This document shows positions 527 to 36,301 of a DNA stretch of 36,301 nucleotides, one piece after another. A model generated the notes under the pieces. That model did not search any database. It saw nothing but the letters and a program-made list of their open reading frames with translations, and was not told where the DNA came from. Each line of letters starts with the position of its first letter. Positions within the stretch are counted from its first letter, which is position 1. The position numbers and the translations under genes were made by a program. The stretch is from NCBI GenBank assembly GCA_945877765.1, contig CAMDWQ010000015.1, forward strand, positions 1 through 36,301, read 5' to 3'. This DNA comes from Candidatus Omnitrophota bacterium (GTDB lineage: Bacteria; Omnitrophota; Gorgyraeia; 2-02-FULL-51-18).

Positions 527-3500
527 ATGAAACTAAAAAATCTTAACAAAGCGATTAGTCTGATCGTGGTGGTGAGTTTTATATTCTCCAACCACGTGGC
601 ATTTGCCTTGCCTTCAGGCTATACGGTGGAGTCGGGAACCGCTGAGTTTGATACCAGCGATCCTTCGAGTCTAGTGATCCATGCTTCGGACCAAGCCATC
701 ATCAATTTTGATTCATTTTCTATTGGGCAGAATGAAACTGTTCGCTTCATCCAGGCTAGCGATACAAGCTCCCTTTTAAGCCGTGTCATCGGCGGCAGCG
801 CCACGGATATCTCTGGGTCTTTATTTAGTAATGGCACTTTGTTTTTGATTAATTCCAACGGAATTAATTTTCGTGAGGGCGCCAATATTCAAGTGAACAA
901 TTTGATTGCCTCCACCTTGAATCTTCAAAGCGCGATGTACTTAAGCGGCCAATACGCTTTCGAAAAACAGGTTGGTTCCAACCCTGGGAAAATTTTAAAC
1001 CAGGCTTCTATTAGCGGGCGTAACATTGCTCTTCTTTCGGAGAGCATTGAAAATCAGGGAGTCCTCGAAGCCAATTTGGGCTCGGTGGTTTTGGGAATCG
1101 GGGAAAGGCAAACCCTCTCTTTTGATTCCGATGGTTCGATTAGCCTTGTCATTGACCAGGGATTAGCAGATTCTCTGAATAAATCTATTCAGAATTCTGG
1201 AACGATTCAGGCGGATGGAGGCAAGGTGCTTTTGTCGGCTAAAACTTTTAATGACACCATGGATACGCTCATCAACAATACCGGGATTCTTCAGGCTACC
1301 AGAGCGGTGGAAAAAGACGGCAAGATCGTATTTGAATCCAACACGGGTAACGTAAACTCAGGGACCATCGACACCAATCTCTTCATCGAGGAAGGGTATT
1401 CCTTTTTTAATACACAGACTGCTTCGATCCTTGGCGGAAGTGCATTTTATGACAATATTGACGGAGCGGCGAACATCTCAGGAAGTATCGGCTCCAATCA
1501 GACGGATACGGGGGATTTGATTGTTGTCGGAAATATCATGCTCACGGCCGGCACCCTTACGTTTACGGCGGACTCGGACAACGATGGGGTGGGAAAATTT
1601 GATATGAACTCAGGGACTACGATAAATACGCTTGCTTCTTGTAACTTGACGCTTAAAACGGGAGAGAACTCAAATTTACGTGTCATCAACGTCACTGGGC
1701 TGACTCTGGACAGAGCTGGGTCGGCGTCTACGCCAACTTACACCATGAATGGTGAGATTACTTTTTCGCCTTTCGTGTCCCTTACGGTTGCCGCAAACAC
1801 GACCTTGAATGTGAATGGCCAAGCTCTAACAGGTTTATCATCAGGGTCTGTTGTCAACAATGGAACCATTAAGCTCATTGGAAGTGAAACGCTGACCGAA
1901 ATCAGCGATCTGGATATTGATTCGGGGACGGTGGAGTATATTGGCAACAATGATGCCACCGGAAACTTCTTCAATATTTTTGATTTCGGAGCGACTGATT
2001 ACTATAACCTTGTGATTAATGCTCCGGATACAGTAGATTCTTTTAGGGCGACCAGCGCGGTCAGCGTCGCTGGTGCGCTGACGGTTACTTCCGGCAAATA
2101 TGAGGTAAATGGGTCTTCTTTAACAGTTGCTGGGCTGACCACGGTGAATGGCGGCGAAATTTACGATTCTGCTCTCGGTGTGGGCACCAGGACTTTCAAT
2201 GGCGGGCTTACCTTATCTAGTGGTACTTATTATGGTAACAATGATACTTCGGATATCAATGGCAACTTAACTATCAGTGGTGGTTTGTTCGACGCCTCAA
2301 CAGGATCTACGACTGTTTCGGGAAATTTTAGCCACTCTGGGGGCACTTTTACTCACAATATTGGGACTGTCACCCTGGATGGAACGAACCAGACGATTTC
2401 GGGAAACACGACATTTTATAATCTAGCCAAAACAGTCACCACGGCAAGAACCCTGACGTTTGAAGCCGGCAGTACCACGACAGTTACTAACAACATCAAC
2501 CTTGCCGGAGCCTCAGGGCAACTTCTCTCTTTAAGGTCTTCTTCCGATGGTTCTCAGTGGCTCATCAATCTTCCCGGGCTAGGCGGGCAAACCTTCTCGT
2601 ATCTTGATGTGAAGGATTCCAACAACACTGGCACAAAACCAAGCACCATTACAGGGGTTGTCAACTCTCTGGGCAACACCAACTGGTTTGGCCTTACGCT
2701 TACTTGGACGGGGACTACTAATACCAATTTTGGAACGGCAACCAACTGGGACCTAGGGTCAGCGCCCACCTCTGCGGATGATGTCGTCATTGCCGATGTG
2801 GCAAACGATCCAATCTTTGGCGCTAACTTTACCCTGGGGAGCCTTACGATTAATTCTAGCGGAATCTTGGATATCGCTGGCTTCAACCTCACTGTATCTG
2901 GCGCTCTGTCAAACAACGGAACATTGAAATTACAAGGTAGCGAAACCGTCAGCTTTGGCACGATGGATACCAATTCGGGGACAGTTGAATACACGGGAGC
3001 CACAGGAACTAATTCCTACGCCACAGGCCTTGCGGCGGGAAATGCTTATTATAATCTGTCCTTTAGCGGAGCTTCTGATACCTGGATTTTGGGTGCCGCC
3101 TTAGACGTCAACAACAACCTCACCATTTCCAACGGCACTCTCGATGTCAAATCCGGCTCAAATTATCAAGTGAATGTGGCTAAAAATTTTGATTCCACTG
3201 GAGGCACTTTTCTTGCTAGAAGCGGAAGTGTTGTCCTTGACGGTACGAACCAGACGATTTCAGGCAACAATTCTTTCTACAATCTCAACAAAACCGTTGC
3301 TGTCGCCGATACTTTAACTTTTGCCGCTGGCTCCACCACGACGATCACGGGTCTTGCCACTCTCAAAGGCGCCGCTAGCAATCTTTTGACGCTTACCTCT
3401 GCGGGAGGCTGGAATATTGACCCTCAAGGGACTAAAGATATTCAGTATGTCGCGGTGGTGAACTCGACGAATCTATCGGGCGCTGTGATTGATCCGGCCA

Positions 3501-4723
3501 ACTCCACCAATGGGGGAGGGAACGTCAACTGGTTTAGCGTTGCGCCCATAGTCCCTGATCCGCGCAGGGGTTGCGTTGAGCTTGGAAACTGTCCAGAAAT
3601 AACTCCAAGGCCCATCATCCGGATAAAAGAGTGGTTCCCGGACCCCGAAACAAAGCATAAACAAAAGCCAGAGGACAAACCAAGGCCTATTCTTGACAAG
3701 GACCCCGAAGACGAAGAGATTACTTCTACGACGCATGTTTTTGAGGGAGCGGTCTATGTTGTGGGTGTAGACGGTTCTGAGGAAATGCTCTACGACGGCG
3801 AATCGATGTCTGTGTCAAAGCGCGGCGCCAGAATCCTTCGCCGTGGAATCTACGTCTCGAGTGTGGACGGCCTTCTGGCCTTAAGAGGAAAAACTTATGA
3901 AAAAATGAAGGAAATGAAACTTAAACAGAGACCCTCAGCGATTGCCGCATCTAAAAAAGGAGACAGTGTTTACGTTGCCCCGCCCGATTCTACGGGTCTT
4001 CTGCAGGTTGACACGGCTAGTTTTAATTCTAAGAATATCAAAGGTTTGAACGAGGGCGCCAATAACATTGCCCTCAGCGAAAAGGGCGACCGGGCTTTTA
4101 TCACCGACGGCAGGCATGATAAAGTGCAAGTGTTTGACACCGAGTCTCAGAACCTGCTGAGAGAGATCTCTGTAGGATCTTTACCCACACAAGCTGTCTT
4201 ATCCGCGGATGAAAAATACGTCTACGTCGTGGAAAGATTGGATGCGACGATTTCTAAATATGATGCCTCCACCGGAAAAAAGATCCTATCGGCGAAAGCC
4301 GGAATCTCGCCCTACGGGGTGGTTCTCTCCCCGGAGACGAATACGATTTATATTACCGACACCATGGGTGGTAAGGTGCTTGTGTTTAATGAGTCTCTAA
4401 AGAAACAGACAGAAATCAAGGTAGGCCAAAGCCCTCACGCGATTATCGCGGATGCCAAGGGAGGCAAGATTTATGTCGCCAATCGTTCGGAAGAATCAAT
4501 CTCAATGATTGATATTTCTAAAAATGAAGTACTCTCGACCATTGCTGTCGGAAAGCGGCCTTCAGGCCTTGCCGTTTTACCGGAGGGAAACAATCTCTAT
4601 GTGGCTAATGAGTTGTCCAATAATCTATCGGTTGTGGACACCCATCTGAGAAGATCGATTCAAGAAATTCCGACGGGCATGGCGCCTAATCAGGTGGTCA
4701 TTTCAAGCCCTAATAATTCTTAA
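527..4723 (+). CDS. Large exported TPS-family (filamentous-haemagglutinin-like) protein with C-terminal YVTN beta-propeller
   Basis: A 1,398-residue surface or secreted protein, the probable substrate of the transporter at 4734-6446. Residues 1-27 form a signal peptide ending AFA. Residues 28 to about 260 are a TPS/haemagglutination-activity domain with the hallmark LFLINSNGINF segment (NPNG-like). A beta-helical stalk rich in Asn, Thr, Gly and Ser follows, with repeats such as GTNQTISGN near residues 620 and 905. A Pro- and charge-rich linker (about 1008-1065) contains two Cys. Residues from about 1135 onward are YVTN/NHL-like propeller blades, seen as recurring units of the kind SPYGVVLSPETNTIYITD and IYVAN. 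The stalk and TPS domain are typical of adhesins; the propeller at the C-terminus is not usual. Its ligand cannot be read from the sequence. Confidence 0.85.
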   Translation: MKLKNLNKAISLIVVVSFIFSNHVAFALPSGYTVESGTAEFDTSDPSSLVIHASDQAIINFDSFSIGQNETVRFIQASDTSSLLSRVIGGSATDISGSLFSNGTLFLINSNGINFREGANIQVNNLIASTLNLQSAMYLSGQYAFEKQVGSNPGKILNQASISGRNIALLSESIENQGVLEANLGSVVLGIGERQTLSFDSDGSISLVIDQGLADSLNKSIQNSGTIQADGGKVLLSAKTFNDTMDTLINNTGILQATRAVEKDGKIVFESNTGNVNSGTIDTNLFIEEGYSFFNTQTASILGGSAFYDNIDGAANISGSIGSNQTDTGDLIVVGNIMLTAGTLTFTADSDNDGVGKFDMNSGTTINTLASCNLTLKTGENSNLRVINVTGLTLDRAGSASTPTYTMNGEITFSPFVSLTVAANTTLNVNGQALTGLSSGSVVNNGTIKLIGSETLTEISDLDIDSGTVEYIGNNDATGNFFNIFDFGATDYYNLVINAPDTVDSFRATSAVSVAGALTVTSGKYEVNGSSLTVAGLTTVNGGEIYDSALGVGTRTFNGGLTLSSGTYYGNNDTSDINGNLTISGGLFDASTGSTTVSGNFSHSGGTFTHNIGTVTLDGTNQTISGNTTFYNLAKTVTTARTLTFEAGSTTTVTNNINLAGASGQLLSLRSSSDGSQWLINLPGLGGQTFSYLDVKDSNNTGTKPSTITGVVNSLGNTNWFGLTLTWTGTTNTNFGTATNWDLGSAPTSADDVVIADVANDPIFGANFTLGSLTINSSGILDIAGFNLTVSGALSNNGTLKLQGSETVSFGTMDTNSGTVEYTGATGTNSYATGLAAGNAYYNLSFSGASDTWILGAALDVNNNLTISNGTLDVKSGSNYQVNVAKNFDSTGGTFLARSGSVVLDGTNQTISGNNSFYNLNKTVAVADTLTFAAGSTTTITGLATLKGAASNLLTLTSAGGWNIDPQGTKDIQYVAVVNSTNLSGAVIDPANSTNGGGNVNWFSVAPIVPDPRRGCVELGNCPEITPRPIIRIKEWFPDPETKHKQKPEDKPRPILDKDPEDEEITSTTHVFEGAVYVVGVDGSEEMLYDGESMSVSKRGARILRRGIYVSSVDGLLALRGKTYEKMKEMKLKQRPSAIAASKKGDSVYVAPPDSTGLLQVDTASFNSKNIKGLNEGANNIALSEKGDRAFITDGRHDKVQVFDTESQNLLREISVGSLPTQAVLSADEKYVYVVERLDATISKYDASTGKKILSAKAGISPYGVVLSPETNTIYITDTMGGKVLVFNESLKKQTEIKVGQSPHAIIADAKGGKIYVANRSEESISMIDISKNEVLSTIAVGKRPSGLAVLPEGNNLYVANELSNNLSVVDTHLRRSIQEIPTGMAPNQVVISSPNNS

Positions 4724-4733
4724 ACCAAAAGAC

Positions 4734-6446
4734 TTAAAAACCTACCATAGCCCCCAGATGAACCTGTGGATTATTTTTGTCGGAAGAGTCATCGCCTAAG
4801 GGAAAGCCCAGGTCAATCTGGGCTGAAATATAGTCATCGATATTTAGGCGCATCCCAAAACCAGTTCCCAGAAGAAATTTATCTTTAACGGTTGCTGGAA
4901 GAGCTCTTTGTCGTAAATAGGTTTTAGCGCTGTCCAGAAAACCGACCAAGCGCAATGAACTTTTCCACGTTTTTTGGGTATAAGGTACTTTCCATTCAGC
5001 GGGCAAAAGGGGCAGCGGCGAGCTGAATTCGGCACTGCTATTCCAACCATAGTCTCCCGCTGAATCCGATTCCGGATAACCCCGAACAGAATAGGCTCCC
5101 CCGGCGCGATATTGCTCTACGGAAGTCAGTGTGTCCGCAGTCCACTGGCCGCCGGCGCGCAAAATCAAAAGCCTCGATTTCGGCAAGCGCTGCAGGCGCA
5201 CGCCATTGAGGGTGTAGAAGGTAAATTCGCCGCCTGAATTTTGAACGCTTGCGTTGGAATCGATGTCTTTTAGGCCGCCGAGAAAATCGGGAAGACCCAC
5301 ATGGATTTGGGGATTGATGATGGTCCGCCCACCGGCATCCTGAAAGGTGAACTGGGGTCCCGCTTGAATCGCGCGTATTCTGTCGACACTGGTGCGGTTG
5401 CCGGCAAGAGTAGAAATAGAGTTGATATATTCCAATCGGATTTGAAAATCGATATTTTTTTGAGGGCTCTGCAGAAGGTGGTAGGTCAATCCTGGCGAGA
5501 CACTCAAAGATTCACCCTCAATTTGAGAGGATTTTAAATACCCGATCAGTCTGGTTTTAACGTAGCTGGCCGATAGACTCAGCGTCAGAGGCCATTGCTC
5601 CAGAGGGAACTCATAGGAAAACGAGCCCCCGTTGAAGGCACCTTCTTCTGTTGTGGTGAAGGCTGTATTTAAGGAATCATCGTAACCCAGGAAATTGTTG
5701 TGATCCACATGAAGACCATGACGGACCCGGTGGGTAAGTTTGGTGCCACGGTTGTTGACGTTGTAGTAAACGTGGAAAGGGTTCTTGTCTTTGACTTTGA
5801 GGATAATATCCGAAGAAGCCAGTTCCTCTCCAGGAATCAAAAAAGCTTTCGCCTGGCGGTCGGGGAGCTGATTTAAAAAATAGAGTTTGCTTTCAAGGTC
5901 CTGGTAGCGAAAAATCCGGTCGGCGGGAAATTTCATGCGCCGCTGGTAACTCTTGGTGCTGAAATAGCGGTTACCCTCGACAAAAACTTTACCTACTTTC
6001 CCCTCGACAATTTTGATTGTCACTGTTTCATCGTCAACTGTTTGCGGAGGCAGGTAGGCGCGGCTGGTGACGTAGCCAGCCCCGCGATAAACCCCGGTGA
6101 TGATGTCGCTAAACGAGCGCAAATGGCGAAAGGACACCTTTCGGTTTTCAAAGGCTGAGGTGAACGAATTAAAATCCTTGGAGGGGACGGCGGTATTTCC
6201 CTCGACAATAATTTTTTTGACAAAAAATACGGGGCCCTGCTCATCGTCTGTCTTTTCATCGTCTTTTTTGATTTCAATGACAGGTTTTTCTGTCAATTTT
6301 TGCCGAATATTCTTTTCTTGCTTGGCTAGAGAATTGGTTTGGGAGGAAAGTTCTCGTTGGGCGTCACCAGAAATGGCAGGCTCCGCCCCCAAAGGGCGGA
6401 TTAGAAAAAAAACCCCGCTGATTAATAGAAAAAGATTTCGCCTCAT
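4734..6446 (-). CDS. TpsB-family outer-membrane transporter (ShlB/FhaC-like)
   Basis: This is an outer-membrane pore of the two-partner secretion system, which would carry the TPS protein across the outer membrane. With the start at 6446 the product has 570 residues and begins with a signal peptide (MRRNLFLLISGVFF, cleavage near residue 21). Longer in-frame starts up to 6563 would bury this signal and overlap the divergent permease gene. Two POTRA domains follow (about 75-150 and 150-230), then a 16-strand-type barrel. The conserved VRGY loop-6 motif lies near residue 454, and the last residue is Phe, as expected for Bam-assembled barrels. Length is normal for the family. The gene is convergent with its presumed substrate gene, with 10 bases between the stop codons, instead of being co-transcribed upstream of it. 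Confidence 0.88.
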   Translation of the reverse strand: MRRNLFLLISGVFFLIRPLGAEPAISGDAQRELSSQTNSLAKQEKNIRQKLTEKPVIEIKKDDEKTDDEQGPVFFVKKIIVEGNTAVPSKDFNSFTSAFENRKVSFRHLRSFSDIITGVYRGAGYVTSRAYLPPQTVDDETVTIKIVEGKVGKVFVEGNRYFSTKSYQRRMKFPADRIFRYQDLESKLYFLNQLPDRQAKAFLIPGEELASSDIILKVKDKNPFHVYYNVNNRGTKLTHRVRHGLHVDHNNFLGYDDSLNTAFTTTEEGAFNGGSFSYEFPLEQWPLTLSLSASYVKTRLIGYLKSSQIEGESLSVSPGLTYHLLQSPQKNIDFQIRLEYINSISTLAGNRTSVDRIRAIQAGPQFTFQDAGGRTIINPQIHVGLPDFLGGLKDIDSNASVQNSGGEFTFYTLNGVRLQRLPKSRLLILRAGGQWTADTLTSVEQYRAGGAYSVRGYPESDSAGDYGWNSSAEFSSPLPLLPAEWKVPYTQKTWKSSLRLVGFLDSAKTYLRQRALPATVKDKFLLGTGFGMRLNIDDYISAQIDLGFPLGDDSSDKNNPQVHLGAMVGF

Positions 6447-6456
6447 ATTTGGATTT

Positions 6457-6465
6457 ATCATAGCA
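6457..6465 (-). promoter_or_regulatory. Extended -10 element just upstream of tpsB
   Basis: On the minus strand TGC-TATGAT forms an extended -10 whose last base is 10 bases from the ATG at 6446. Transcription would begin only a few bases before the start codon. No Shine-Dalgarno sequence is present. An in-frame ATG at 6461 overlaps the element. Confidence 0.4.
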
Positions 6466-6483
6466 TGAATGGACAAAATAATA

Positions 6484-6514
6484 TTGAATTTCCCGGCCCG
6501 CTTTGGTGTATAAT
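6484..6514 (+). promoter_or_regulatory. Promoter of the KimA-like permease, probably leaderless
   Basis: TTGAAT (6484-6489) and a perfect TATAAT (6509-6514) are separated by 19 bases. Only eight bases lie between the -10 and the ATG at 6523, so the start codon would fall at or next to the 5' end of the mRNA. There is no Shine-Dalgarno sequence. The promoter lies back-to-back with the tpsB -10 element. Confidence 0.55.
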
Positions 6515-6522
6515 CTTTTTTC

Positions 6523-8487
6523 ATGTCCTTCATCCAAAGAATCAAACGCGCCGTCATCGGCAAAGCTAAAAGTCCTCTAGATCAGGGTGTATTTCACAAC
6601 CTATCCCTGATTGCGTTCTTTGCCTGGGTAGGTTTGGGCGCCGACGGGCTCTCATCCTCCTGTTACGGTCCCGAAGAAGCGTTTTTGGCTTTGCAAGGAC
6701 ATAGCTACCTCAGCATCTTTGTTGCGATTGGCTCCGTCTTGACGGTGTTTCTCATCAGCGCCAGCTACATGCAAATCATCGAGTTGTTTCCGGCGGGCGG
6801 TGGCGGTTATCTGGTGGCCAGCAAACTTATTTCCCCCCGCGCCGGACTGGTATCGGGATGCGCTCTTCTGATTGACTATGTTCTGACGATCACGATCTCG
6901 ATTGCTAGCGGATCGGATGCTATTTTCAGTTTTCTACCCGCGCAGTGGCAGGCCTACAAATTAGCTTTCGCTGTTACCGGTATCGTCCTTTTGACGGTGA
7001 TGAATCTACGTGGGGTCAAAGAATCAGTGGTGATATTGATTCCCATTTTCATCGTTTTTTTGGTGACCCACGTGTTTGTGATTATTTACGCGCTTGTCGC
7101 ACACTCCGGTAATTTTTCGCATGTGGTTCAATCGACCGCCATGGATATTCAGGCTACCAAATCCCAGATGGGGCTGTTTGCGATGATCTTGCTCATTTTG
7201 CGGGCGTACAGCATGGGCGCGGGAACGTTTACTGGTATCGAGGCCGTTTCCAACGGCATGGGAATCTTGAGAGAGCCTAAAGTTGCCACGGGTAAAAGCA
7301 CGATGCGCTACATGGCATTTTCGCTCGCGTTTACCGTGATGGGGTTGATGCTGGCCTACTTACTTTTTGACGTAGCGCATGTGCCGGGCAAGACACTGAA
7401 CGCGGTGTTGTTTGGTGAAATTACAAAAAATTGGGGCTATTCCGGACATATTTTTGTTCTTGTAACCCTAATTTCGGAAGCGCTGCTCCTAGTAGCTGCT
7501 GCCCAGACCGGGTTTTTGGGAGGACCAAAAATTCTTTCCAATATGGCGCTGGATCGCTGGTTTCCTTCCAAGTTTGCGGTGCTCAGCGACCGCTTGGTGT
7601 CTCAGAATGGCGTTCTATGGATGGGGACTGCGGCGCTGGTGACGGTTATTTTGACGGGCGGCTCCGTGCGTTTTCTGGTGGTGCTTTATAGTATCAATGT
7701 GTTTATTACTTTTTGCCTTTCTCATTTGGGGATGGTCCGGCATTGGTGGCTTGTCCGTACATCCGTTCCTGGATGGTGGAAAAAACTATTGATCGCGGGT
7801 CTGGGTCTTGTGATGACCACGTTTATTCTGGTCTCGGTCGTGGTGCTCAAATTTCACGAGGGTGGTTGGATTACGATTGTGATTACGGGCGCACTGGTAG
7901 CGGTTGCTTTATTGGTTAAGCAGCATTATCTTCAAACCGCACAACTTCTAAAGCGCCTCAACAACCTGCTTCAGGAAGCCGCTGCCGTTGAAATCAAAAA
8001 AGAGGCTGTTTTGCAGAAACAACACGATCCCGATGCGAAAACCGCCGTGCTGATGGTGAATGGTTTCAACGGTCTAGGACTTCACACCCTTTTTAATGTC
8101 ATCCGCCTTTTTGGTAAAGAATTCAGAAACTTTGTATTCATCGAGATCGGCGTCATCGATGCTGGCAATTTCAAGGGGGCCGCGGAAGTGGGGCATTTGA
8201 AAGTCCAGGTCCATCGGGATGTAGACCGTTATGTTTCCCTGATGCAAAGCCAGGGATGTTATGCCGAAGGGCGCTCCTATATCGGCATCGACGTGATCAG
8301 CGAGGCGGAACAAATTGCACCAAAAATATTAAAAGATTATCCCAATGCAGTTTTTTTTGGGGGACAACTGGTTTTCCCCGAGGAAACTTTTCTGACGCGC
8401 CTTCTGCATAACCACACGGTTTTTGTGCTCCAGCGGAAATTTTACCAGCAGGGAATCCCCTTTGTTATTTTACCGATCAGGGTGTGA
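6523..8487 (+). CDS. APC-superfamily permease, KimA/KUP-like (probable potassium importer)
   Basis: A 654-residue integral inner-membrane transporter. The N-terminal 470 residues contain about twelve hydrophobic segments. The signature [15 protein letters not shown] in the first membrane segment and [10 protein letters not shown] about 50 residues later match the APC subfamily that includes the c-di-AMP-regulated potassium importer KimA. The remaining residues form a soluble cytoplasmic domain, as in KimA. An amino-acid substrate cannot be excluded, since the wider family includes amino-acid permeases. The ATG at 6523 aligns with the family N-terminus (short basic stretch before the first membrane segment) and sits directly behind a -10 box. 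ridA follows after 25 bases and may be co-transcribed. Confidence 0.8.
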
Positions 8488-21767: not shown

Positions 21768-21819
21768 AAATTCCGTTTTTAATACCACTTTTATGGTCAA
21801 AAAACCGCGGGAGTTTCCG

Positions 21820-22557
21820 ATGAAAATTAAACTTTTGTCTTGGTGGGTATTGACGGCCTTGGCGGCTGGGTTGGTTTCTTGGACTCCGGAAGCATTTGCC
21901 GACGTTTCCTCGGCACGTCCTGATTTGGATGACCGAATTTGGAATGCCACACAAGTTTTGAATCAAATTATGCTTTCGCCGGACCAGAGTATCCCCGAAG
22001 AGCTTTTGGCCAAATGCAAGGCCATTGCCATTTATCCGAGTGTGTTGAAGGGCGCTTTTATTTTTGGCGCACGTTTTGGCAAAGGGGTGGTGGTGACCAA
22101 GGACGCCTCTGGGAATTGGGGCCCGGTGGCATTTTCGACGGTCGGAGGCGGCAGTTGGGGTTTTCAAATTGGGGGCTCTTCGACGGATCTGATCGTTTTG
22201 GTGATGAATGACGCTGGAATGGAAAGTCTTTTGAGAAATAATTTTACGCTGGGCGCGGACGCTCAGGTAGCCGCCGGTCCTGTGGGACGTGATTCGCAGG
22301 CGTCGACGGATCTTTTTTTGAAGGCCAGTCTTTTTTCCTATTCCAGGAGCATGGGGCTTTTTGCGGGAGTTGCACTGGATGGCACGGTGTTGACGCAAGA
22401 TAACAATTCAAACAGCGCCTATTACGGCCGGCCGGTTACTTCCAAGCAGATTCTTTTGGAAAATGCAGCCACGGTGCAGCCTACGTCGAGAGGATTGATT
22501 GATAAGCTGACGGAGTATTCTGCGCGGTGGTCGGCAAGGGTTGCGGCGAAGAGATAA
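21820..22557 (+). CDS. Exported SYLF-domain (Ysc84/DUF500) protein, copy 1
   Basis: A 245-residue exported protein. Its signal peptide is MKIKLLSWWVLTALAAGLVSW, cleaved near AFA. The SYLF domain covers most of the rest, with KCKAIAIYP, GARFGKGVVV, GNWGPVAFST and the hydrophobic-Ser-Arg segment FSYSRSMGLFAGVALDG. SYLF domains bind phosphoinositides in eukaryotes; bacterial exported members have unknown roles and are assumed to be envelope or lipid binding. The start at 21820 is preferred over 21793 because GGGAG lies six bases upstream and the signal peptide begins there. A paralogue sits at 26320-27042. Confidence 0.88.
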   Translation: MKIKLLSWWVLTALAAGLVSWTPEAFADVSSARPDLDDRIWNATQVLNQIMLSPDQSIPEELLAKCKAIAIYPSVLKGAFIFGARFGKGVVVTKDASGNWGPVAFSTVGGGSWGFQIGGSSTDLIVLVMNDAGMESLLRNNFTLGADAQVAAGPVGRDSQASTDLFLKASLFSYSRSMGLFAGVALDGTVLTQDNNSNSAYYGRPVTSKQILLENAATVQPTSRGLIDKLTEYSARWSARVAAKR

Positions 22558-26319: not shown

Positions 26320-27042
26320 ATGATTAAATCTAAAATTTTGATTAGTGTGCTGGTGCTTGGTTTGGGTCTCTCATCTACCTCTTATGCGGATGTCGCGGAG
26401 CAGGACCGTATCATTGGGCAGGCCAAACAGGTGCTTGTTGAGATGATGGCCTCCCCCGACCAGAGCATCCCTGAAGAACTTCTGGCTAAATGTAAGGCGA
26501 TCGCGATCTACCCGTTTGTGCTCAAGGGCGGTTTTCTTATTGCCGGTCGTTATGGAAAGGGAGTTGTTCTCAAGCGCGATAAAAAGACGGGCGAGTGGGG
26601 GCCTGTGACTTTTTCGACGATTGCGGGGGCCAGCGCGGGGTTGCAGGCGGGCATACAAGCCACCGATTTGGTTCTTATTTTTTTAAACAACAAGGGGCTT
26701 GAGAGTCTTCTTAACAGCAAAATAACTTTAGGGGGCGATATCGCTTTATCGGTAGGTCCCGTCGGACGGGCCTCTGAAATATCAACGGATTTTTTTCTTC
26801 GATCGATGATTGTTTCCTATTCACGCAGCCGGGGACTTTTTGCCGGGTTGGCACTCAACGGCGCGGTGGTGATGCCCGATAACGGCGCGGATGAATCGTA
26901 TTATGGGAAGCGTTTGTCAGCCAGCGAGCTGCTTTCTTTGGATAGCACGTCCATCAAACCCACCTCGAAAGACCTTATCGACGCTCTTAATCAATATTCT
27001 TTGAATTGGCAGAAGCGTCAGAGTCTGAAAGTAAAAAAGTAA
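26320..27042 (+). CDS. Exported SYLF-domain (Ysc84/DUF500) protein, copy 2
   Basis: A 240-residue paralogue of the protein at 21820-22557, with its own signal peptide (MIKSKILISVLVLGLGL, cleavage near SYA). It shares long identical stretches with copy 1, for example SIPEELLAKCKAIAIYP, and has the same order of SYLF motifs (GRYGKGVVL, GEWGPVTFST, VSYSRSRGLFAGLALNG). The role is presumably lipid or membrane binding in the envelope. Unlike copy 1 it lacks a ribosome binding site and appears leaderless. Its last 56 bases overlap the end of the convergent PilZ gene. Confidence 0.88.
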   Translation: MIKSKILISVLVLGLGLSSTSYADVAEQDRIIGQAKQVLVEMMASPDQSIPEELLAKCKAIAIYPFVLKGGFLIAGRYGKGVVLKRDKKTGEWGPVTFSTIAGASAGLQAGIQATDLVLIFLNNKGLESLLNSKITLGGDIALSVGPVGRASEISTDFFLRSMIVSYSRSRGLFAGLALNGAVVMPDNGADESYYGKRLSASELLSLDSTSIKPTSKDLIDALNQYSLNWQKRQSLKVKK

Positions 27043-27660: not shown

Positions 27661-27790
27661 TTTCATAGGTATTGGGAATCGGGTTTCTATCCCGAAGGTT
27701 GATTGAAATTTATTTTTTTTGGGTAACTTAAAAGTCTAGTTTTTATACATTTTTAATATGTCACTTCATAACTTCTTAATTAGAGAAAAT

Positions 27791-30700
27791 ATGGACATAG
27801 AAAAAACAGATACGCCAAAATCCGAATTAGCGGAAAATATCACAATCGAAACCCAAAAACGGTTTCGGTCGCGCTACGGATCGCTGTTGAGGTCTATGTC
27901 TGCGGTGTTGGTGTTTACGTTTCTTTTGCAGGATATCGTCCAAGCCCAAGGCGGGACCCCACTGTGGTCCCAGGTCATCGACACCAAAAATACTTCCACG
28001 GTTAAGCTCTCTGATCTGGAAAAAATAACCATTCCAAAAGATTCGGGCCTTACGCGCAAAGTCGCGGTGAACGGCACCAGTGATCTTATCATCAACATCC
28101 AAGACGCTCACTCCAAACTCGGCGCCCAGGAGAGCATCACCAAAATACTCGACAGCCTAGTCAAAAATTATAGTTTAAGTTTGGTGGCAGTTGAGGGCGG
28201 TACCGATTTGGTGGATACCTCCATTATCTCTAGTTTTCCTATCCAGGAGGTGAAAGAAAAGACAGCTTCTTATCTGATGAAAGAAGGCAAGATCTCCGCC
28301 GGCGAATTTTATTCGATGATTTCTAAGGACCCTGTCAAACTCTACGGAGTTGACGACCCGACGTTGTACCAAGAAAACGTGGACGTTTTTAAAGCACTCA
28401 TCGAAAACAAAGCGGTCATCCGCAAGGAACTCAAAAACCTTAAGAAAGCGGTGGCGGGCCTGGAAGCCAAAGTCTATTCTCCAGCACTTTTGGAGATGGT
28501 CAGTAAGAAGCTTCTTCACAAAACCGGTGACATCAAGTTTACCGAGTACTGGGAATATTATTCCAAGGCTGCCAAACAAAAGAATGTTGATATCACCCAA
28601 TTCGCTAACATCAAAAAACTCTCCGATATGGTCGAGCTTGAAAAAGAGATTGATTTTAAAAAGGCCAACCTTGAGCGCGAAGCCTTGATCGATGAGCTGG
28701 GCAAAAAGCTCCCCAAGCCGGCGCTCGAAAAATTTGTCCTGGAAGCTCTACGGTTTAAGCAGAATAAAATCACCCCGGGAGCTTTTCACTTTTCCTTGAG
28801 CCAAGCCGCCCATGGGATGAATATCAATCCCGCCGTGTACAAAAATGTGATTCTCTATTCCCAGTACGTGGTTTCGTATGAGAGCATCGATCTTATCGCC
28901 ATCTTTGACGAAGTGGAGAACTTTGAAAATCAACTCAAAGAGAAGTCCTTCACCCAAGACGATGAGCGGACCCTCTCAGAGACCGCCCGGTGCGTCAGCA
29001 TTCTTTCCGGTCTTTTAGACACGGCTCTTAGCAGCAAAGAGTACGAATTCTACGCCAAAAATATTGACCGCTGCGAAATTTCTTCAATTGAAAAAACTAT
29101 CCGGGAACTTTCTCTTAAATACGCGTTTGATGCCTCTTTTGTTAATTTTCAAGCGCTTGCTAAATCGGTGCCGGACGCCCGGAAGTTTTATGAATTGGCC
29201 GAAAAGAGAAATCACGCTCTTATGAAAAATACGATGAAGCGCATGAAGGAAGAAAACGTCCACGTGGCCGCCCTCATCACCGGAGGTTTTCACTCCGAAG
29301 GAATCTCTAAGCTGATGGATGATGAGAAACTTTCGTATCTTGTCGTCATGCCGCGTTTTGACGAGAAGTCTCCCAATAGGCCCTACATCGCCATCCTGAC
29401 TCAGAAACCCCGCGAATATGAAGATGCTTTTCGTGATGACCCTGATTTTTACGTGGCTCTGGAAGTTGCCGGAATGTTAAAAGACCCGCAAGCAACAGCT
29501 GGGCAGATCGCTAAATTGCGTGAGATCGGAAAGTCGAGGGTCCAAGCGCTTCTCTATCAGTATTGGAATTTTTCAAAAGAGACGAAGCTATCTCAAAACT
29601 GGATTGATCAATCGGCGGAGATTTATCAACGTCAATTCGATGCCCTAAAAAACCAAGGCAAGGAGCCCATTTTTTCCGTAGAAGAATACCGGCAACTTCT
29701 AAGCCAAGGCCATGTCGTCCAGAGAAGGGATGGTATTAGGGAAGTAAGTTTTGAGGATTTAAATCCCAACTCTTCAACCACAACACTGACTTTAAATGCT
29801 GCGCGGTTGGCGGAAAAGGAGATACGTTTAATTGATGATATTGATGATGCCGGTTTGGGGGCAATTGCGGATGCGGTGGTGGCGGTCGGAGTCAAAAATA
29901 AAATGCGTCAGCCCACCGAGGATGACGTACGGGCGATTGCTAACAGGCGTGGGGCGAGATTATCAGCAGACCAGGTGAGCTTGGTTCATGACATGGCTGT
30001 TACGCGGTGGGTCAAAGCCGGTCAAATCGTTGCAAGAGTAGTAAAGGCAGAGGAAGCGGGTCGGGCAACATCAATGACCACCGCCCGCCCTACTAAAACC
30101 AACCATGTAAATATCCAAGCCAAAACATTATTTGATGTTTTGAGCCAAGGCGAAGATCTTTCCAACGCTTTGAGTAATCTGACAAAAATCATCAAGTTTC
30201 TTGCCTCCGCTAAGAATAAGGGGGTGTCTGAAGAACAGAAGACAGAGCTAAAGAAACTTTTAAGTCTGATTGCAAAAATAGAAAGGCTTTTGGTTCATGA
30301 TTATGCCAGTCAGGCACTTTTCGATGTGCCACGCGCTGTCGTTCAAAAAGAGCTGAGACGTTATGGGATGGCAGAAGCAAAAATAAGTCAGATTACACAA
30401 AATCCACAGACGTCAATTTTTAGAAATAATCGTAGAAAAGCTTATCTTCGTGCGACCACCGAAGCGTTAGATGCAGAACTCAATGCAATGTTTTTAAAAT
30501 CTGGACAGCCGGCGCCCGCGCTTTTGTCCCAAGTGGAGGCTTTGAAAAAGAGAGCTCGTGTTCTTTTGGCAGTGTCGGAGGACGATAAAAAAGATTATGA
30601 GCTGTGGGTGGCGTCCGTTGAGAACGACAGCGGCGTGCGAAAGGCTAGAGAGGACATTCAAGTGGCGCAGACATTAAAGGCCGCTCAGGAAACTCAAAAA

Positions 30701-33700
30701 GCTCAGACCGAGAATGTAATTGCCCAGGCCGCGGGGGAGAAATTAGTGACTTCTGAAAAGAAGACTTGGTACCAGCAGCTGGCAGCGATACCACCATTTC
30801 TAGTAGCTTCAGCGCGGATATTTTTAAAGAATTTGTTTTCTAGGACGGTTTTACCCCTATTTTCCCCGGGGGCATCTGATCGCTTTAGCCGCAATCGAAT
30901 TGAGGCTAAGTGGCCCAACCAGATCAGTGAGATCAAAAACTCGCTAAAGATTAGAGGGATGGATGAATCCCAGATCGATGAATTTCTGGACAAGCGTTTT
31001 GACTGGACTCTGGCCTTAAACGATCTCGAAGCTGCCGATGAAAAAGCATACCGAGACAAGAATTATGGTAAGGACGTGGAGAAGCTTGGAGAATTTGTAA
31101 AAGCCAAGTACAAAGAGGTGCGTGAAAACCTGATTAAGCAAAAAATTATCAAGCTGGACACCTCGTGGTATAAGGTTGTGGGTTATTACGCAGGGCCTTC
31201 TTTTGCCTGGCACCTGTTTCGTGGCTTTTATTTGCGTCATCCAGGAAGCGCTTTTCGTTACCACTATCTGGGTAGCAGCGAGACAGCATCCTTGGATGTT
31301 CGGGATGCGCGGCGTGTATTGGGAGATCAAGTCGCTTCTCAACTCAACTTGAGTTCTCAACCGCGCTTTCGTACCGTTGTGAGGAACTTTGCTTTCAGGG
31401 CCATCGGGGTCCTAGGTTATTTGACTCGCGTGATTTTGGTGCGTGCTCATATAACTTTTTTAACAGAAAGATTTGGGCTTTATATTTATAGTTCAGTGCT
31501 AGTTGGTGGCGGTCTGACAGTGATATCGAGCGTGCTGGTGATGGGAGTCCCTATTTTGGCTGTCATTCCCCTAGGGTTATTCCTTTATGCAGCCATTCGT
31601 TACAGACCTGAAATTAATAATCGTGCGAAAACTTTATTCGGAAAGGATGTCAGCGCCAGGTCACTGCATGACCAGCGCATAGGTATTATTCTTGGAATTG
31701 TTATCATCGCCTCCGTTGTTTCGATTGGTTTTGGTTTGCCTCTAATGGCCGCCAATCTCTTGGCAAATTTGGTATTGCCTGGATATGTAACCACATGGCT
31801 AGGCTCGTATGCAATCACGAAAGTGTTTTTGGGGAGCTTTACTGTATCCCAGATGCTAAGCCCTTTTCTGACAACATTTGTCCGTGGATTTATCCAGAAT
31901 TCCTCACAAATGAGAGCTCAGATTTTAGCTCAGGGCGCTATCAGAAAAGACCAATTTAAATTTGAAACTCTTTTAGATTCTATTCTTGAAAAAAAAGAAA
32001 ATACCCGTGGGTATATCAACGCCAGAGGTGAGTTCATTGTTTGGAAGTGGGACGCGGCTACCGCCATTGATTTTTTAGAGAGCGCTGCTAAAAATGCTTC
32101 AGAGGGCCGTCTTGAGACTGCCAAAAAAGAAAATATTCTTAAACTTTTTTACGCCCTCCAAAAATATGACAGTAATCTCCGTGTGAGGTTGCGGCTGGCG
32201 CGTTTACTCCAGGCCGATAAGATCCAACGCCTTCAAATTGCGGATCTGGTAGGTCTTATTGCCAAACGAGGTCCCCCGTCAGCGGTGACAGAAGATGCGC
32301 CTGAAATCCAGGCTCTTTCTTTAGATATTTCTGTCTGGAGGAAACAGACCGGCTTCGAAGCCAGAAAAGAGGTATTTTCTGGCACGCGTTTTTGGCGTTC
32401 TCTTCCCGCGCGGTGGTTTTCGATGTGGTTTGTCAATACTGAAATCGCGGGCGTCTTGACCCAACTAGGCATTTTTGACTCTGTCATTGGTTGGATTTTT
32501 TCACAAGTTAGCTCAGTCAAAATCGAACTTCACTTTTTTGAACAGTTTGGTCAACTGATTGAAGGTGCTCACCCGGACCAGGGACATCCTGTCTCTACGA
32601 CAGGGTTTCGCATTTACGGCGGCCCCGATGCTCCACTTGGACCTTTTTCTCGCGCGCTTGAATACTTTGCTCAGGATATGGGCGGTATGTTGGGTGTATT
32701 CGGACATCTTGCCGAATGGTTGCAGAGCTGGATAAACGGCTTTCCTGTGATCGGGGAGGCGACATTCCGCGTAAGTCATCTGGCGGACATGGTAATGAAA
32801 CCAGAACAATTTAAGATGGCCGCGGAATCAAGAGACCTTCGTCGCGAGTTCGTCGAGGCCAGCGCTGGCATCAAAAAGCATTTAAATAGTTTAGGTCTTC
32901 TGGACTCCGACGAGAAAAAATCCAACCATCGGATAGAAGAGCTGGCGCAGGAAGCAATGAGCATGACGCGCCGCGAAATTAAAGATCTTGTCTTGCGGGA
33001 GTTCCCGGAGTTGGATCAAAAAGCGGTAAATTTTCTGGTCGTCGAGCTATCCGATGCTTCCAAGGCCCTAAGTGATATCACGCTTCTGGAGGACAAGTTG
33101 CGGGTCGGTGGTGCTACAGACAACGGTGATGGTCTCGTTTTAATTAAGGCCAATATTGCACATCTGGAGGCCCAGCAGACTGCCCTCCACGCCCGGGAAA
33201 AATTCCAAAGGGCGCAGGAAAATCTTTCTGTCTTAATGCCTGATTCGAATGAGGCAGTAAACGGTTTTCTTTCTGAAATTCAAAATAAAAATCTTATATC
33301 GACTTTAAGCCCAGCGCAGGTCCGCGCGCTTATTTTAAAAAGTGACGAAATTCTTTTGGCGTTGGAGGTTGATGATGAGGCAACTCAGGACGACGTTGAG
33401 CAGCTGACAGCGGCTGTTGTCGAATATATAAGCAGCCAGCAGGATTATCTCGAAGCTTCTCGTGTGGAAGCGGCGACAGGCGCTACAGCTTCTCTGCAGA
33501 AAATTTTAAATGGTATTGAGAACGAAAAAGATCCGAAGCAGCTAGCAATCTGGAAGATGCGACAAGAAATATTAGAAGCCACGGCCACCAAAAATACCTA
33601 TGAGAAAGAGATTGAGGCGATACGCGTGCGTCTTAGCAGCCTGCAAAGGGAAAGAGTGGCGAGCACAGATGACTCAATGGTTATGGATCTGGCGCTAGCG

Positions 33701-36301
33701 CTTTCGGAAACGAAAGCCACTTTGACCGCGCTTGAGGAAAAATTAAGCCAAACCGACCGCCGCCTAGCCGAAGCTTCTTTCCAGGCTCAACTTCTCACTC
33801 TGGAAGCCGAACAGGCCAAAGCAGAAGAGCCTATTCAAAAGAAAGTCCTTCAAGCGCAAATCACGGCCTTGAAAACAGCAGAGGAGGTGCGTCGGGTCCA
33901 AGTTCGCAGAGCCGATGTTGCACCTGATGCGGACCCGCAGGAGATAGCGGACCTTAATAAGGAATTGATGAAGGCTCAGCAAGATGCGCAGACAGCGGCC
34001 ACGGCTTACCACATTGAAGCTCTAAAAGCAGAGCAGGCCGAAGCTAGAACAAGTGATGAGAGAAAAGCACTTTTGACTCAAATAGAAGATTTGGAATCCC
34101 AAGCTTTGAAGCAGTCGATCGAATATGACCTCCATATCGCCAAAGCTCACAGAGAGCGCTTGCTGGCAAAGTTGGAAAGTGCTGACCCTGCTGGGAAACT
34201 CCTTCTTGAGGAAGAGCTTTTGAAAGTCGAAAAATCGGTGGCGGCGTTGGAAAAAACTCAAATTGAGCAAATGTTGATTGAGCTTAAGGAAGAAAAAATC
34301 CATGACGAAAAAGCTTTCGAGGAAGCCAAACAAGAGATGGCTATTTCTGATCGGACTGATGATGAGGACCTCTACGGTGAATGGATTAACCAACAGAGAA
34401 TTGCCGAATTAAAACTGGAGCTTACTAACAAACGTATTCAGTATTTTGAGTCGATCGTTATCGGCGGCGGGGGAGGCGGGTCGGGTGGTGAGGGCGATGC
34501 GGGCGGAAAACTAGAGAATATTTTGACAACTGCGACGCCGGCACTATCTGGCAATGATGATGACAAGGAGAAGCAGCTCCAAGAGATCCGCAAACTCGCA
34601 GAAGATCTCCAAAAGCTTCAAAGCGCCGCTACGGCTGCCTCAAAACAGTTGTCAACGCCCAAAATTGATGGTCTGGATAAGAGATCGGAACTGCGGGAAG
34701 CTCAGGCGGCTATGGCTAAAGCACAAACAACCCAAGATCCTCAGGCTTATTTCCAAGCCATGCAGAACTTGGAGAACGTTAAAAAAGCCTATCTTGCCGA
34801 TATCCGTGGTGAGTCTCTCCAGCAGCTGGAGGTCCCCTTGGCGCCGGAAGCGGTGGAAAAATCGCCGTTAGAAAAATTAGTTCAAGAGGCGGAAAAAAAT
34901 CCGTATGTTCCTACGGCACTCCCCGCTCAGGAGACAGTCGAGGGTCCGTCAATGCGGGAAAAAATAGTAGAAAATTTTTGGAAAAAAGTAGATCAGGGCT
35001 CCCAAATGCTCCGTGTGGCTTCGGAAACAGTAAAAGCGGCTAATGAAAAATTGCAAGTCCAGCAAGTCGAACGCACTAAGGCTATCGCCACCAAGGAAGT
35101 TCAAATCACAGGACTCCAAGAGGAGATTGCGGCCTTAAATTCCGAAGTGAGCGCGGCTCAAAAGAATTTCCTCAAAAAAGATGAAACTACTTATTACAGT
35201 CAGGATGAGATGAGGCAAAATTTAGATACCAAGTGGAATAAAACACCCGAAAGCGAAAAGAATTCACCCTATCAGGTTTGGAAGACTCGTTTTGAGAAAA
35301 GAGCCGCTGAGATTGAAAATCGCCAGAAGGCGATCCTTGGCGAAGTAGCCGCCAAGCAGGCCGAGATTACAAAGTTAAGGCAGGAAATCGGTGACTTGAG
35401 TTTGACGCGGGATAAAATCAATGATGTTTTAAAAGAGACTGATCAAGACCCAGCTCCGAATGAGGACAAGCTCGCGGAAGCTCGCGCCGAGCTCAAAAAA
35501 ACTGCGCTCAGTAATGCAACCCAACGTCTAGCCGCCATGAAATCCGATGCCCGCGAACTGCGGGGCATCCTCCCGGAAAGAGTACCGTTGACCGAGCCGA
35601 TGGACGCAGGTATAAAAAAAGACGTTTTGGATGAGTATACGGCAATACTTAAGTCCAGAGGCATGGCCCAGCAGGATCTGAACCGGGCGACGGACGAGCT
35701 CCAAAAGTTTCTGGACTGGGGCAACGGAGTACCCAGACCTATAACCATCAATCTGCCGCAGACTTGGGAGAAGGCTCGTAAGGAAATGTGGGACAGAGCC
35801 GATCGCCTGAAGCGCGAAGCTGTTCTTAAGGGACTGGCGGAAGCGCTCGATCGTGGAGATTCCATCCCTGATAAATTGCGCACCTTCCTCAGCAAGAAGA
35901 CTTTCGAGGCTGTTGAAAAGGCGCGGGGGGAAAGAGCGCTCGCTCCGCCCGTCGAAGCACCAATCGCGCAAAGTTTACCGAATGCGTCCACTGTGCAGAA
36001 AGCACCGTCCCCAGACTCTAAAGAGGCTCAGCGTGTGGAGAAGTCCTTAGATGAAAACCTCGCGGAAACTCGCGCCGAGCTCAAGCGCGTCACCCTCAAG
36101 AGAGATGCCCTCAGTGAGCTCGCCCAACATCTAGCTACCACGAATTCCAATTCCCCCGAATTGAGCAGATTTCGCTGGTCGGGAGCACCGTTGACCGATC
36201 CGATGGACGAAGCTATAAAGACAACTGCTTTGAATGAGCTGGAAGACCGTTTTAAGAAAAAACTCAAGTCAGGGGGAATTGCTGTAACTCCCACGATGCT
36301 G
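27791..36301 (+). CDS. Giant exported/membrane protein (first 2,837 residues; runs off the window)
   Basis: An uninterrupted frame from the ATG at 27791 to the last base, 2,837 codons without a stop. Residues 1-27 are charged; about 30-53 (LLRSMSAVLVFTFLLQDIVQAQ) is a signal peptide or membrane anchor, and ATG 27896 (residue 36) is an alternative start. Residues 85-560 look like one alpha/beta domain, with INIQDAH (His107), LVAVEGG (Glu135) and ITGGFHSEGI (His501), reminiscent of TraB/Tiki-superfamily hydrolase-like proteins. Residues 560-1200 are helical and charged. Hydrophobic segments lie at about 1234-1270, 1296-1333 and 1340-1367. From about 1750 on it is a long, charged coiled coil, broken by a Gly-rich linker (about 2225-2240). 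A unit of about 196 residues starts to repeat at the right edge. Function unknown. Confidence 0.85.
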   Translation, partial: MDIEKTDTPKSELAENITIETQKRFRSRYGSLLRSMSAVLVFTFLLQDIVQAQGGTPLWSQVIDTKNTSTVKLSDLEKITIPKDSGLTRKVAVNGTSDLIINIQDAHSKLGAQESITKILDSLVKNYSLSLVAVEGGTDLVDTSIISSFPIQEVKEKTASYLMKEGKISAGEFYSMISKDPVKLYGVDDPTLYQENVDVFKALIENKAVIRKELKNLKKAVAGLEAKVYSPALLEMVSKKLLHKTGDIKFTEYWEYYSKAAKQKNVDITQFANIKKLSDMVELEKEIDFKKANLEREALIDELGKKLPKPALEKFVLEALRFKQNKITPGAFHFSLSQAAHGMNINPAVYKNVILYSQYVVSYESIDLIAIFDEVENFENQLKEKSFTQDDERTLSETARCVSILSGLLDTALSSKEYEFYAKNIDRCEISSIEKTIRELSLKYAFDASFVNFQALAKSVPDARKFYELAEKRNHALMKNTMKRMKEENVHVAALITGGFHSEGISKLMDDEKLSYLVVMPRFDEKSPNRPYIAILTQKPREYEDAFRDDPDFYVALEVAGMLKDPQATAGQIAKLREIGKSRVQALLYQYWNFSKETKLSQNWIDQSAEIYQRQFDALKNQGKEPIFSVEEYRQLLSQGHVVQRRDGIREVSFEDLNPNSSTTTLTLNAARLAEKEIRLIDDIDDAGLGAIADAVVAVGVKNKMRQPTEDDVRAIANRRGARLSADQVSLVHDMAVTRWVKAGQIVARVVKAEEAGRATSMTTARPTKTNHVNIQAKTLFDVLSQGEDLSNALSNLTKIIKFLASAKNKGVSEEQKTELKKLLSLIAKIERLLVHDYASQALFDVPRAVVQKELRRYGMAEAKISQITQNPQTSIFRNNRRKAYLRATTEALDAELNAMFLKSGQPAPALLSQVEALKKRARVLLAVSEDDKKDYELWVASVENDSGVRKAREDIQVAQTLKAAQETQKAQTENVIAQAAGEKLVTSEKKTWYQQLAAIPPFLVASARIFLKNLFSRTVLPLFSPGASDRFSRNRIEAKWPNQISEIKNSLKIRGMDESQIDEFLDKRFDWTLALNDLEAADEKAYRDKNYGKDVEKLGEFVKAKYKEVRENLIKQKIIKLDTSWYKVVGYYAGPSFAWHLFRGFYLRHPGSAFRYHYLGSSETASLDVRDARRVLGDQVASQLNLSSQPRFRTVVRNFAFRAIGVLGYLTRVILVRAHITFLTERFGLYIYSSVLVGGGLTVISSVLVMGVPILAVIPLGLFLYAAIRYRPEINNRAKTLFGKDVSARSLHDQRIGIILGIVIIASVVSIGFGLPLMAANLLANLVLPGYVTTWLGSYAITKVFLGSFTVSQMLSPFLTTFVRGFIQNSSQMRAQILAQGAIRKDQFKFETLLDSILEKKENTRGYINARGEFIVWKWDAATAIDFLESAAKNASEGRLETAKKENILKLFYALQKYDSNLRVRLRLARLLQADKIQRLQIADLVGLIAKRGPPSAVTEDAPEIQALSLDISVWRKQTGFEARKEVFSGTRFWRSLPARWFSMWFVNTEIAGVLTQLGIFDSVIGWIFSQVSSVKIELHFFEQFGQLIEGAHPDQGHPVSTTGFRIYGGPDAPLGPFSRALEYFAQDMGGMLGVFGHLAEWLQSWINGFPVIGEATFRVSHLADMVMKPEQFKMAAESRDLRREFVEASAGIKKHLNSLGLLDSDEKKSNHRIEELAQEAMSMTRREIKDLVLREFPELDQKAVNFLVVELSDASKALSDITLLEDKLRVGGATDNGDGLVLIKANIAHLEAQQTALHAREKFQRAQENLSVLMPDSNEAVNGFLSEIQNKNLISTLSPAQVRALILKSDEILLALEVDDEATQDDVEQLTAAVVEYISSQQDYLEASRVEAATGATASLQKILNGIENEKDPKQLAIWKMRQEILEATATKNTYEKEIEAIRVRLSSLQRERVASTDDSMVMDLALALSETKATLTALEEKLSQTDRRLAEASFQAQLLTLEAEQAKAEEPIQKKVLQAQITALKTAEEVRRVQVRRADVAPDADPQEIADLNKELMKAQQDAQTAATAYHIEALKAEQAEARTSDERKALLTQIEDLESQALKQSIEYDLHIAKAHRERLLAKLESADPAGKLLLEEELLKVEKSVAALEKTQIEQMLIELKEEKIHDEKAFEEAKQEMAISDRTDDEDLYGEWINQQRIAELKLELTNKRIQYFESIVIGGGGGGSGGEGDAGGKLENILTTATPALSGNDDDKEKQLQEIRKLAEDLQKLQSAATAASKQLSTPKIDGLDKRSELREAQAAMAKAQTTQDPQAYFQAMQNLENVKKAYLADIRGESLQQLEVPLAPEAVEKSPLEKLVQEAEKNPYVPTALPAQETVEGPSMREKIVENFWKKVDQGSQMLRVASETVKAANEKLQVQQVERTKAIATKEVQITGLQEEIAALNSEVSAAQKNFLKKDETTYYSQDEMRQNLDTKWNKTPESEKNSPYQVWKTRFEKRAAEIENRQKAILGEVAAKQAEITKLRQEIGDLSLTRDKINDVLKETDQDPAPNEDKLAEARAELKKTALSNATQRLAAMKSDARELRGILPERVPLTEPMDAGIKKDVLDEYTAILKSRGMAQQDLNRATDELQKFLDWGNGVPRPITINLPQTWEKARKEMWDRADRLKREAVLKGLAEALDRGDSIPDKLRTFLSKKTFEAVEKARGERALAPPVEAPIAQSLPNASTVQKAPSPDSKEAQRVEKSLDENLAETRAELKRVTLKRDALSELAQHLATTNSNSPELSRFRWSGAPLTDPMDEAIKTTALNELEDRFKKKLKSGGIAVTPTML
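35471..36301 (+). repeat. Tandem repeat units inside the giant gene
   Basis: The DNA at 35471 (CTCGCGGAAGCTCGCGCC, continuing GAGCTCAA) recurs at 36059 with one change in 26 bases, and CCGTTGACCGAGCCGATGGA (35584) recurs near 36188 with one change. The period is about 588 bases (196 codons). Encoded shared motifs are LAExRAELK, then PLTxPMDxxIK. More copies may follow beyond the window. Confidence 0.75.

Follow-up and report, generated by a model that had tools for sequence, protein, structure and literature searches.

What kind of protein is encoded by a gene that runs off the end of its contig after more than eight kilobases without a stop codon? The window, by which we mean the whole stretch of 36,301 bp analysed here, is the complete contig G000:C15 (1-36301) of an Omnitrophota genome (G000; 1.65 Mb, 98% complete, 39 contigs), and its last part is occupied by such a frame. 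An earlier note, made from the sequence of the window, had described the gene as a giant exported protein with an anchor or signal peptide, a putative hydrolase-like domain, a cluster of membrane segments and an endless coiled coil, in an architecture that it did not recognise. The frame was followed into the rest of G000, from which the contig ends and the loci of the family described below were taken in, and into other Omnitrophota genomes. The features of the gene are as follows.

27758..36301, forward strand: giant open reading frame (ORF) with no stop before the contig ends; 5' portion of the gene, 2,848 codons counted from the upstream ATG
27845..29467, forward strand: head domain with a predicted TIKI/Ere/ChaN-like fold; conserved D (28103), H (28109), E (28193) and H (29291)
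27884..27940, forward strand: signal peptide or hydrophobic segment LLRSMSAVLVFTFLLQDIV (aa 43-61), then VQA; lies within the extended signal consensus of 28 heads
29798..29812, forward strand: AARLA motif (aa 681-685), the first punctuation mark after the head
29951..29965, forward strand: GARLS motif (aa 732-736), the second punctuation mark
30923..32728, forward strand: tail segment (aa 1056-1657), 28-34% identical to a 10,105-aa ORF in G005:C53, otherwise nearly orphan
31484..31780, forward strand: cluster of hydrophobic segments, probably transmembrane (aa 1243-1341)
32444..32500, forward strand: further hydrophobic segment (aa 1563-1581)
34463..34489, forward strand: glycine-rich linker GGGGGGSGG (aa 2236-2244) within a charged, Pro/Gly-poor region

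Extent of the giant gene and its genomic context

Read from the ATG at 27791 on the forward strand, the frame is free of stops for 2,837 codons up to 36301, just as the earlier note had claimed, and each of the other five frames has 93-190 stops along this stretch, so that chance does not account for so long a frame. No frameshift was found, the head aligning end to end with homologs of the same family at 57-65% identity. A weak purine-rich stretch lies upstream of the ATG at 27791 and none upstream of the ATG at 27758, which makes 27791 a reasonable start and the likelier of the two.

Since the window is a whole contig, the giant gene is cut by the assembly and its stop codon lies beyond it; 8.5 kb of the gene is present before the contig end, and orthologs of the same family measure 28 and 38 kb. 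The 3' end of C15 showed no DNA overlap with other G000 contig ends. Giant ORFs open at the 5' side at the ends of contigs C3, C6, C9, C21 and C22 are candidate continuations, none of which could be joined to C15, and the end of C4 reads N. Pairs of giant ORFs that enter different G000 contigs with the same first residues were observed at the starts of C13 and C27, at the ends of C9 and C21, and at the end of C22 and the start of C35; this indicates that the assembly broke at near-identical repeats common to different giants and that giant paralogs recombine or have duplicated recently. Two further ORFs led by a head, G000:C1:86-1678 and G000:C30:84-5978, lack the alanine ending described below and finish with identical residues, EFLALRILPASF, at a distance of about 85 bases from the starts of their contigs, which is probably a shared repeat or a contig-end artefact.

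The genes adjoining the giant ORF are ordinary. Elsewhere in the window, a TPS-domain exoprotein with a C-terminal beta-propeller (527-4723, forward strand) and a ShlB/FhaC-type transporter with a POTRA domain (4734-6563, reverse strand) are convergent and form a two-partner secretion system. Two Ysc84-domain proteins are encoded close together, at 21793-22557 and 26320-27042 (both forward strand), with 0.7 kb separating the second from the giant gene downstream.

A head shared across the phylum

The first ~560 residues of the window protein consist of a signal peptide followed by a domain of ~500 residues, together referred to as the head. Within G000, the head matches 27 places, counted as 24 loci, which are mostly the starts of long ORFs. 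It was present in 40 of the 59 searched genomes, and the search for homologues in Omnitrophota that the earlier note had proposed recovered it in 143 of 285 sampled genomes of the phylum, the longest ORF of this survey having 12,928 aa; the head also occurs there by itself, in copies of about 520-560 aa. Orthologs of the same family are 57-65% identical over the head, and complete giants with orthologous heads reach 9,348 aa (G001) and 12,700 aa (G010). When named genomes were scanned, all 79 loci found belonged to Omnitrophota, a result obtained with patterns drawn from Omnitrophota sequences that does not imply absence elsewhere; together with the placement of the genome itself, it agrees with the origin suspected earlier.

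Across 28 heads, the start follows a common extended signal consensus, R/K-x-IS..LV..FL.Q[D/E]...A, and most heads close this signal-peptide-like region with an Ala-x-Ala-like end. The window protein fits this family, carrying the signal peptide and a head with the conserved blocks in a giant ORF. These data show that the head marks a phylum-wide, multi-copy family of giant proteins in Omnitrophota. In G010:C1:1436000-1530000, four giant ORFs (6,545, 12,700, 6,449 and 1,732 aa) share one orientation in a stretch of 95 kb. The shortest of them bears a head, lacks the alanine ending and differs in frame from the 6,449-aa ORF, whose start it overlaps; this suggests that these two are one gene split by a frameshift.

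Fold and predicted site of the head

AlphaFold2 produced a head model with a pLDDT of 83.7, whose top Foldseek matches were weak but coherent: EreC (6xcs), BcR135 (3b55), HopBA1 (5t09) and ChaN (2g5g), with a best E-value of 0.03 (probability 0.91) and all fold E-values at 0.03 and above. These four proteins have been placed in the TIKI superfamily or linked to the Ere family, and a 2His/2Glu active site is described for the superfamily, its two Glu being separated by 30 residues (PMC6254334). Among the 28 heads, the conserved elements are IQDAH, E[GA]G and GG[FY]H, with an invariant D-x-H, an invariant E at +30 and a near-invariant GG[FY]H. The acidic residues of the window head are thus spaced 30 apart as in the 2His/2Glu pattern, the first being Asp rather than Glu. 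Model and pattern together suggest that the head belongs to the TIKI/erythromycin-esterase-like fold class, with a predicted Asp-x-His...Glu...His site. The hydrolase-like domain of the earlier note is supported at the level of this probable fold class, and the head would be a putative hydrolase.

The ChaN profile PF04187 reached E=0.018 in one of the 28 head members, PDB sequence profiles gave no meaningful match to either the head or the C-terminal domain, and a viral fold library gave no convincing match to the head.

Tails, C-terminus and cargo units

Beyond the head, the window protein contains two copies of a short motif, both just after the head, and none in the remaining ~2,100 residues. 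The hydrophobic segments at aa 1243-1341 and 1563-1581 bear out the membrane-segment cluster proposed earlier, as the hydrophobic, signal-peptide-like segment at aa 43-61 does for the signal peptide or anchor. The tail matches one other giant only, G005:C53, over the membrane region, apart from one marginal match, and Pfam and NCBIfam searches of the window protein returned nothing significant (Pfam 0 hits). The C-terminal half is charged and poor in Pro and Gly; a crude test found no sustained 3.5-residue periodicity there, and the glycine-rich linker at aa 2236 breaks the region, so the endless coiled coil is not supported. The architecture described earlier therefore stands for its signal, hydrolase-like domain and membrane cluster; it had missed the phylum-wide, multi-copy family, the alanine-terminal C-terminus and, in the G000 lineage, the cargo separated by GARLA motifs.

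Giants with orthologous heads hardly align beyond the head. Their ends are nevertheless alike: Ala is the last residue in 39 of 47 long family ORFs and in 32 of 318 other ORFs from these loci, an unselected count that may include a few ORFs twice, from different collections. Giants of different families also have in common a C-terminal domain of ~300-380 residues, whose model (pLDDT 47.7) was too poor for a fold search. These comparisons show that the tails turn over extremely while the C-terminal signature is kept. In G000, the family ORFs counted take up 13.6% of the genome with their roughly 75,000 residues, a figure that includes the 5'-open giant ORFs at contig ends, which have the motif and the Ala ending and whose heads lie off the contig.

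The cargo identified in paralogs comprises GH77, M23 peptidase, MBL-beta-CASP, PPDK/PEP-utiliser, DnaJ, FHA, HEAT/TPR, PfkB and methyltransferase units, and a giant of G010 contains a protein kinase. Tat-like signals stand at the start of three units that immediately follow a motif; TIGR01409, applied to two of them, matched one above and the other just below its cut-off, and the third had a marginal GH5 match (E=0.015). Units of this kind were located right after GARLA in G000 contigs C28 (aa 954 and 1868) and C3 (aa 1703) and in G005:C63 (aa 4174), so that the Tat-signal unit recurs in giants of two genera, and it looks like a glycoside hydrolase by the marginal GH5 match. GH77 was considered as a metabolic enzyme found solely inside a giant and was rejected, as a separate, better-matching GH77 ORF is encoded on C37 and the unit in the giant is a second, more diverged copy.

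A punctuation motif between units

An unbiased count of tetrapeptides in the G000 tails placed ARLA, GARL and AARL far ahead of all others. ARLA occurred 102 times against 2.8 expected (36-fold) in 49,335 tail residues from 20 proteins, and was absent from 23 other ORFs (14,257 residues). Aligned copies share five conserved positions only, [G/A]-A-R-L-[A/S], with Gly or Ala at position 1, Ala or Ser at position 5 and free flanks. Genome-wide, a degenerate DNA pattern for the motif was found at 169 places versus 30 for the reversed pattern, the excess lying in giant ORFs. The motif is also in excess in the near relatives G001, G002, G005 and G009. Other Omnitrophota families showed no excess of comparable size and kept head and C-terminus, which means that the architecture does not need the motif; a search for a comparable motif in their giants turned up only Pro/Ala-rich linkers.

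The positions of the motif are not random with respect to the units. None of 106 motifs in 12 proteins fell inside a Pfam domain, compared to 6.5 expected (P=0.0002), and the flanks are linker-like, with Pro, Ser, Thr and Gln abundant and aromatic residues scarce. Where two giants share a unit, 4 of 29 edges lay on a motif in both proteins versus 0.10 in shift simulations. Units often have a motif on either side: a PfkB unit (2220-2506) is situated between motifs at 2114 and 2529, and a methyltransferase unit (3261-3392) between motifs at 3224 and 3448. In places, neighbouring motifs are spaced as closely as 8-50 residues. Taken together, these observations show that the motif delimits units in the G000 lineage. 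At the DNA level the motif is varied, with 98 distinct 15-mers among 111 copies, and its codons are skewed: in G000, CGG accounts for 46% of motif Arg codons versus 15% locally and TTG for 48% of Leu codons versus 22%. The CGG bias is similar in G005, G009 and other relatives, and the preferred Leu codon is TTG in G000 and CTG in relatives. This bias beyond local usage hints at a DNA-level component.

Possible explanations for the giant proteins

The reading that we favour, and to which we give about an even chance, is that the window protein is an exported, polyprotein-like cargo carrier of an Omnitrophota-wide family, with GARLA as a processing or junction site. Its long members combine the extended signal peptide, the TIKI/Ere-like head, a long, fast-changing cargo region and, usually, a C-terminus that finishes with -[S/A]-A, often within the common C-terminal domain. 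The chain would leave the cytoplasm through Sec, head and tail would serve export, surface retention or processing, and the middle would carry enzymes, membrane parts and binding parts acting outside the cell. The [G/A]ARL[A/S] motifs between cargo units, in G000 and some near relatives, would most likely be sites of proteolytic processing, in which case the giant chain would behave like a bacterial polyprotein; the head itself is one candidate for the protease, and the cargo may be used against other cells. A bolder version, that giant polyproteins make up a large share of the exported proteins, that a dedicated protease cuts at the motif and that units are shuffled at it among the roughly two dozen giants of a genome, is advanced tentatively, at somewhat less than even chances. 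The literature on Omnitrophota giant ORFs (PMC10066038) and the hydrolase cargo of paralogs make predation or surface attachment a plausible role. Several findings weigh against such a carrier: many cargo domains are of usually cytoplasmic types (DnaJ, PfkB, FHA), the motif has its codon bias and is absent in most other Omnitrophota families, the window protein has two motif copies and lacks its 3' end, and the E-values for the head fold are 0.03 and above.

The same motif could instead mark an uncut giant surface fibre or adhesin in which GARLA is a linker or a docking motif for a scaffold or for the head of a neighbour, giving a coat or a cellulosome-like array. Among the roles proposed for Omnitrophota giants are an extracellular coat and adhesion (PMC10066038), the motifs lie in linkers between domains as docking motifs would, and conservation confined to five positions, the flanks being free, would suit a short binding motif; spacings of 8-50 residues are, however, odd for docking, and Tat-signalled units beside motifs fit better if the units were or become separate proteins, and we consider such a fibre rather unlikely. 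Motifs that coincide with the edges of shared units, codons biased towards CGG and TTG (the CGG bias extending to relatives) and near-identical stretches at contig ends, a sign of duplication between giants, would also follow if GARLA were a junction scar, left where recombination at a short GARLA-encoding DNA seed lengthens giants, the peptide having no function of its own. It is the peptide that is conserved and not the DNA, however, and the preferred Leu codon differs between genera, which makes a mere scar improbable. That the giants are cytoplasmic multi-enzyme proteins, with the N-terminal hydrophobic segment as a membrane anchor only, is more improbable still: DnaJ, PfkB, FHA, beta-CASP nuclease and 4-alpha-glucanotransferase cargo is of usually intracellular types, yet the signal-peptide-like start is conserved with its Ala-x-Ala-like end in most heads, some units have Tat signals or resemble peptidoglycan peptidases, and the GH77 unit duplicates, in diverged form, an enzyme encoded separately. 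Hardly credible, finally, is an assembly artefact or pseudogene read-through, which might be suspected from G000 contigs that break inside giant ORFs, the window ending inside one. Homologous heads lead ORFs of thousands of codons in independent assemblies, one of them on a 1.59 Mb contig (G010:C1), and the other frames are full of stops.

Comparison with known systems

An association of giant ORFs with predation or attachment has been described in Omnitrophota (Seymour et al. 2023, PMC10066038), and the consulted portions of the literature describe these proteins as poorly conserved and of unclear function. The known giants resemble those described here in phylum, great length, transmembrane segments, few annotated domains and poor conservation; the available portions of the published accounts name no common head, alanine-terminal C-terminus or punctuation motif. 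Processing of Omnitrophota giants into smaller proteins has already been suggested in a preprint (West-Roberts et al. 2023), according to the papers that cite it (PMC13104272, also PMC12057145). The literature searched, in which that preprint is represented by the citing papers, yielded neither a common head nor a C-terminal signature nor a candidate cleavage site, and we provisionally regard head, C-terminal signature and punctuation motif as new to Omnitrophota giants. These three marks make the giants a single, defined family, open to counting, unit-by-unit annotation and testing. Should the motif prove to be a site of cleavage, they would constitute a large-scale bacterial polyprotein system, which would help to explain why genes for 10,000 residues are kept in genomes of 1.5 Mb.

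Skillet-clade Lipocone giants of Omnitrophota (PMC12419801) are likewise gigantic and contain enzymes, methylases, peptidases and transmembrane segments; a Lipocone domain was not detected here, and that account does not mention TIKI or TraB. The window head is like the TIKI/Ere/ChaN/TraB superfamily, whose fold is built on a parallel beta-sheet with flanking helices, in its predicted fold class and in its acidic-x-His...Glu...His pattern. In contrast to TIKI, Ere and ChaN, it has Asp for the first Glu and a long all-helical insertion between the conserved halves, stands at the N-terminus of giant proteins and is barely detected by sequence profiles.

In its proposed way of working, the family may be compared to the MARTX toxins. 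Pfam detected neither RTX repeats nor a C80 protease domain in the window protein (3' part missing), the scanned paralogs and one relative, and, unlike MARTX, the Omnitrophota family has a Sec-type signal and a TIKI/Ere-like head. The proposed analogy lies in an exported chain of giant size whose ends are conserved and whose central effectors vary and are released by proteolysis. The MARTX protease domain cuts after Leu (PMC2780291), and a cut between the Leu and the final Ala of GARLA would likewise follow Leu.
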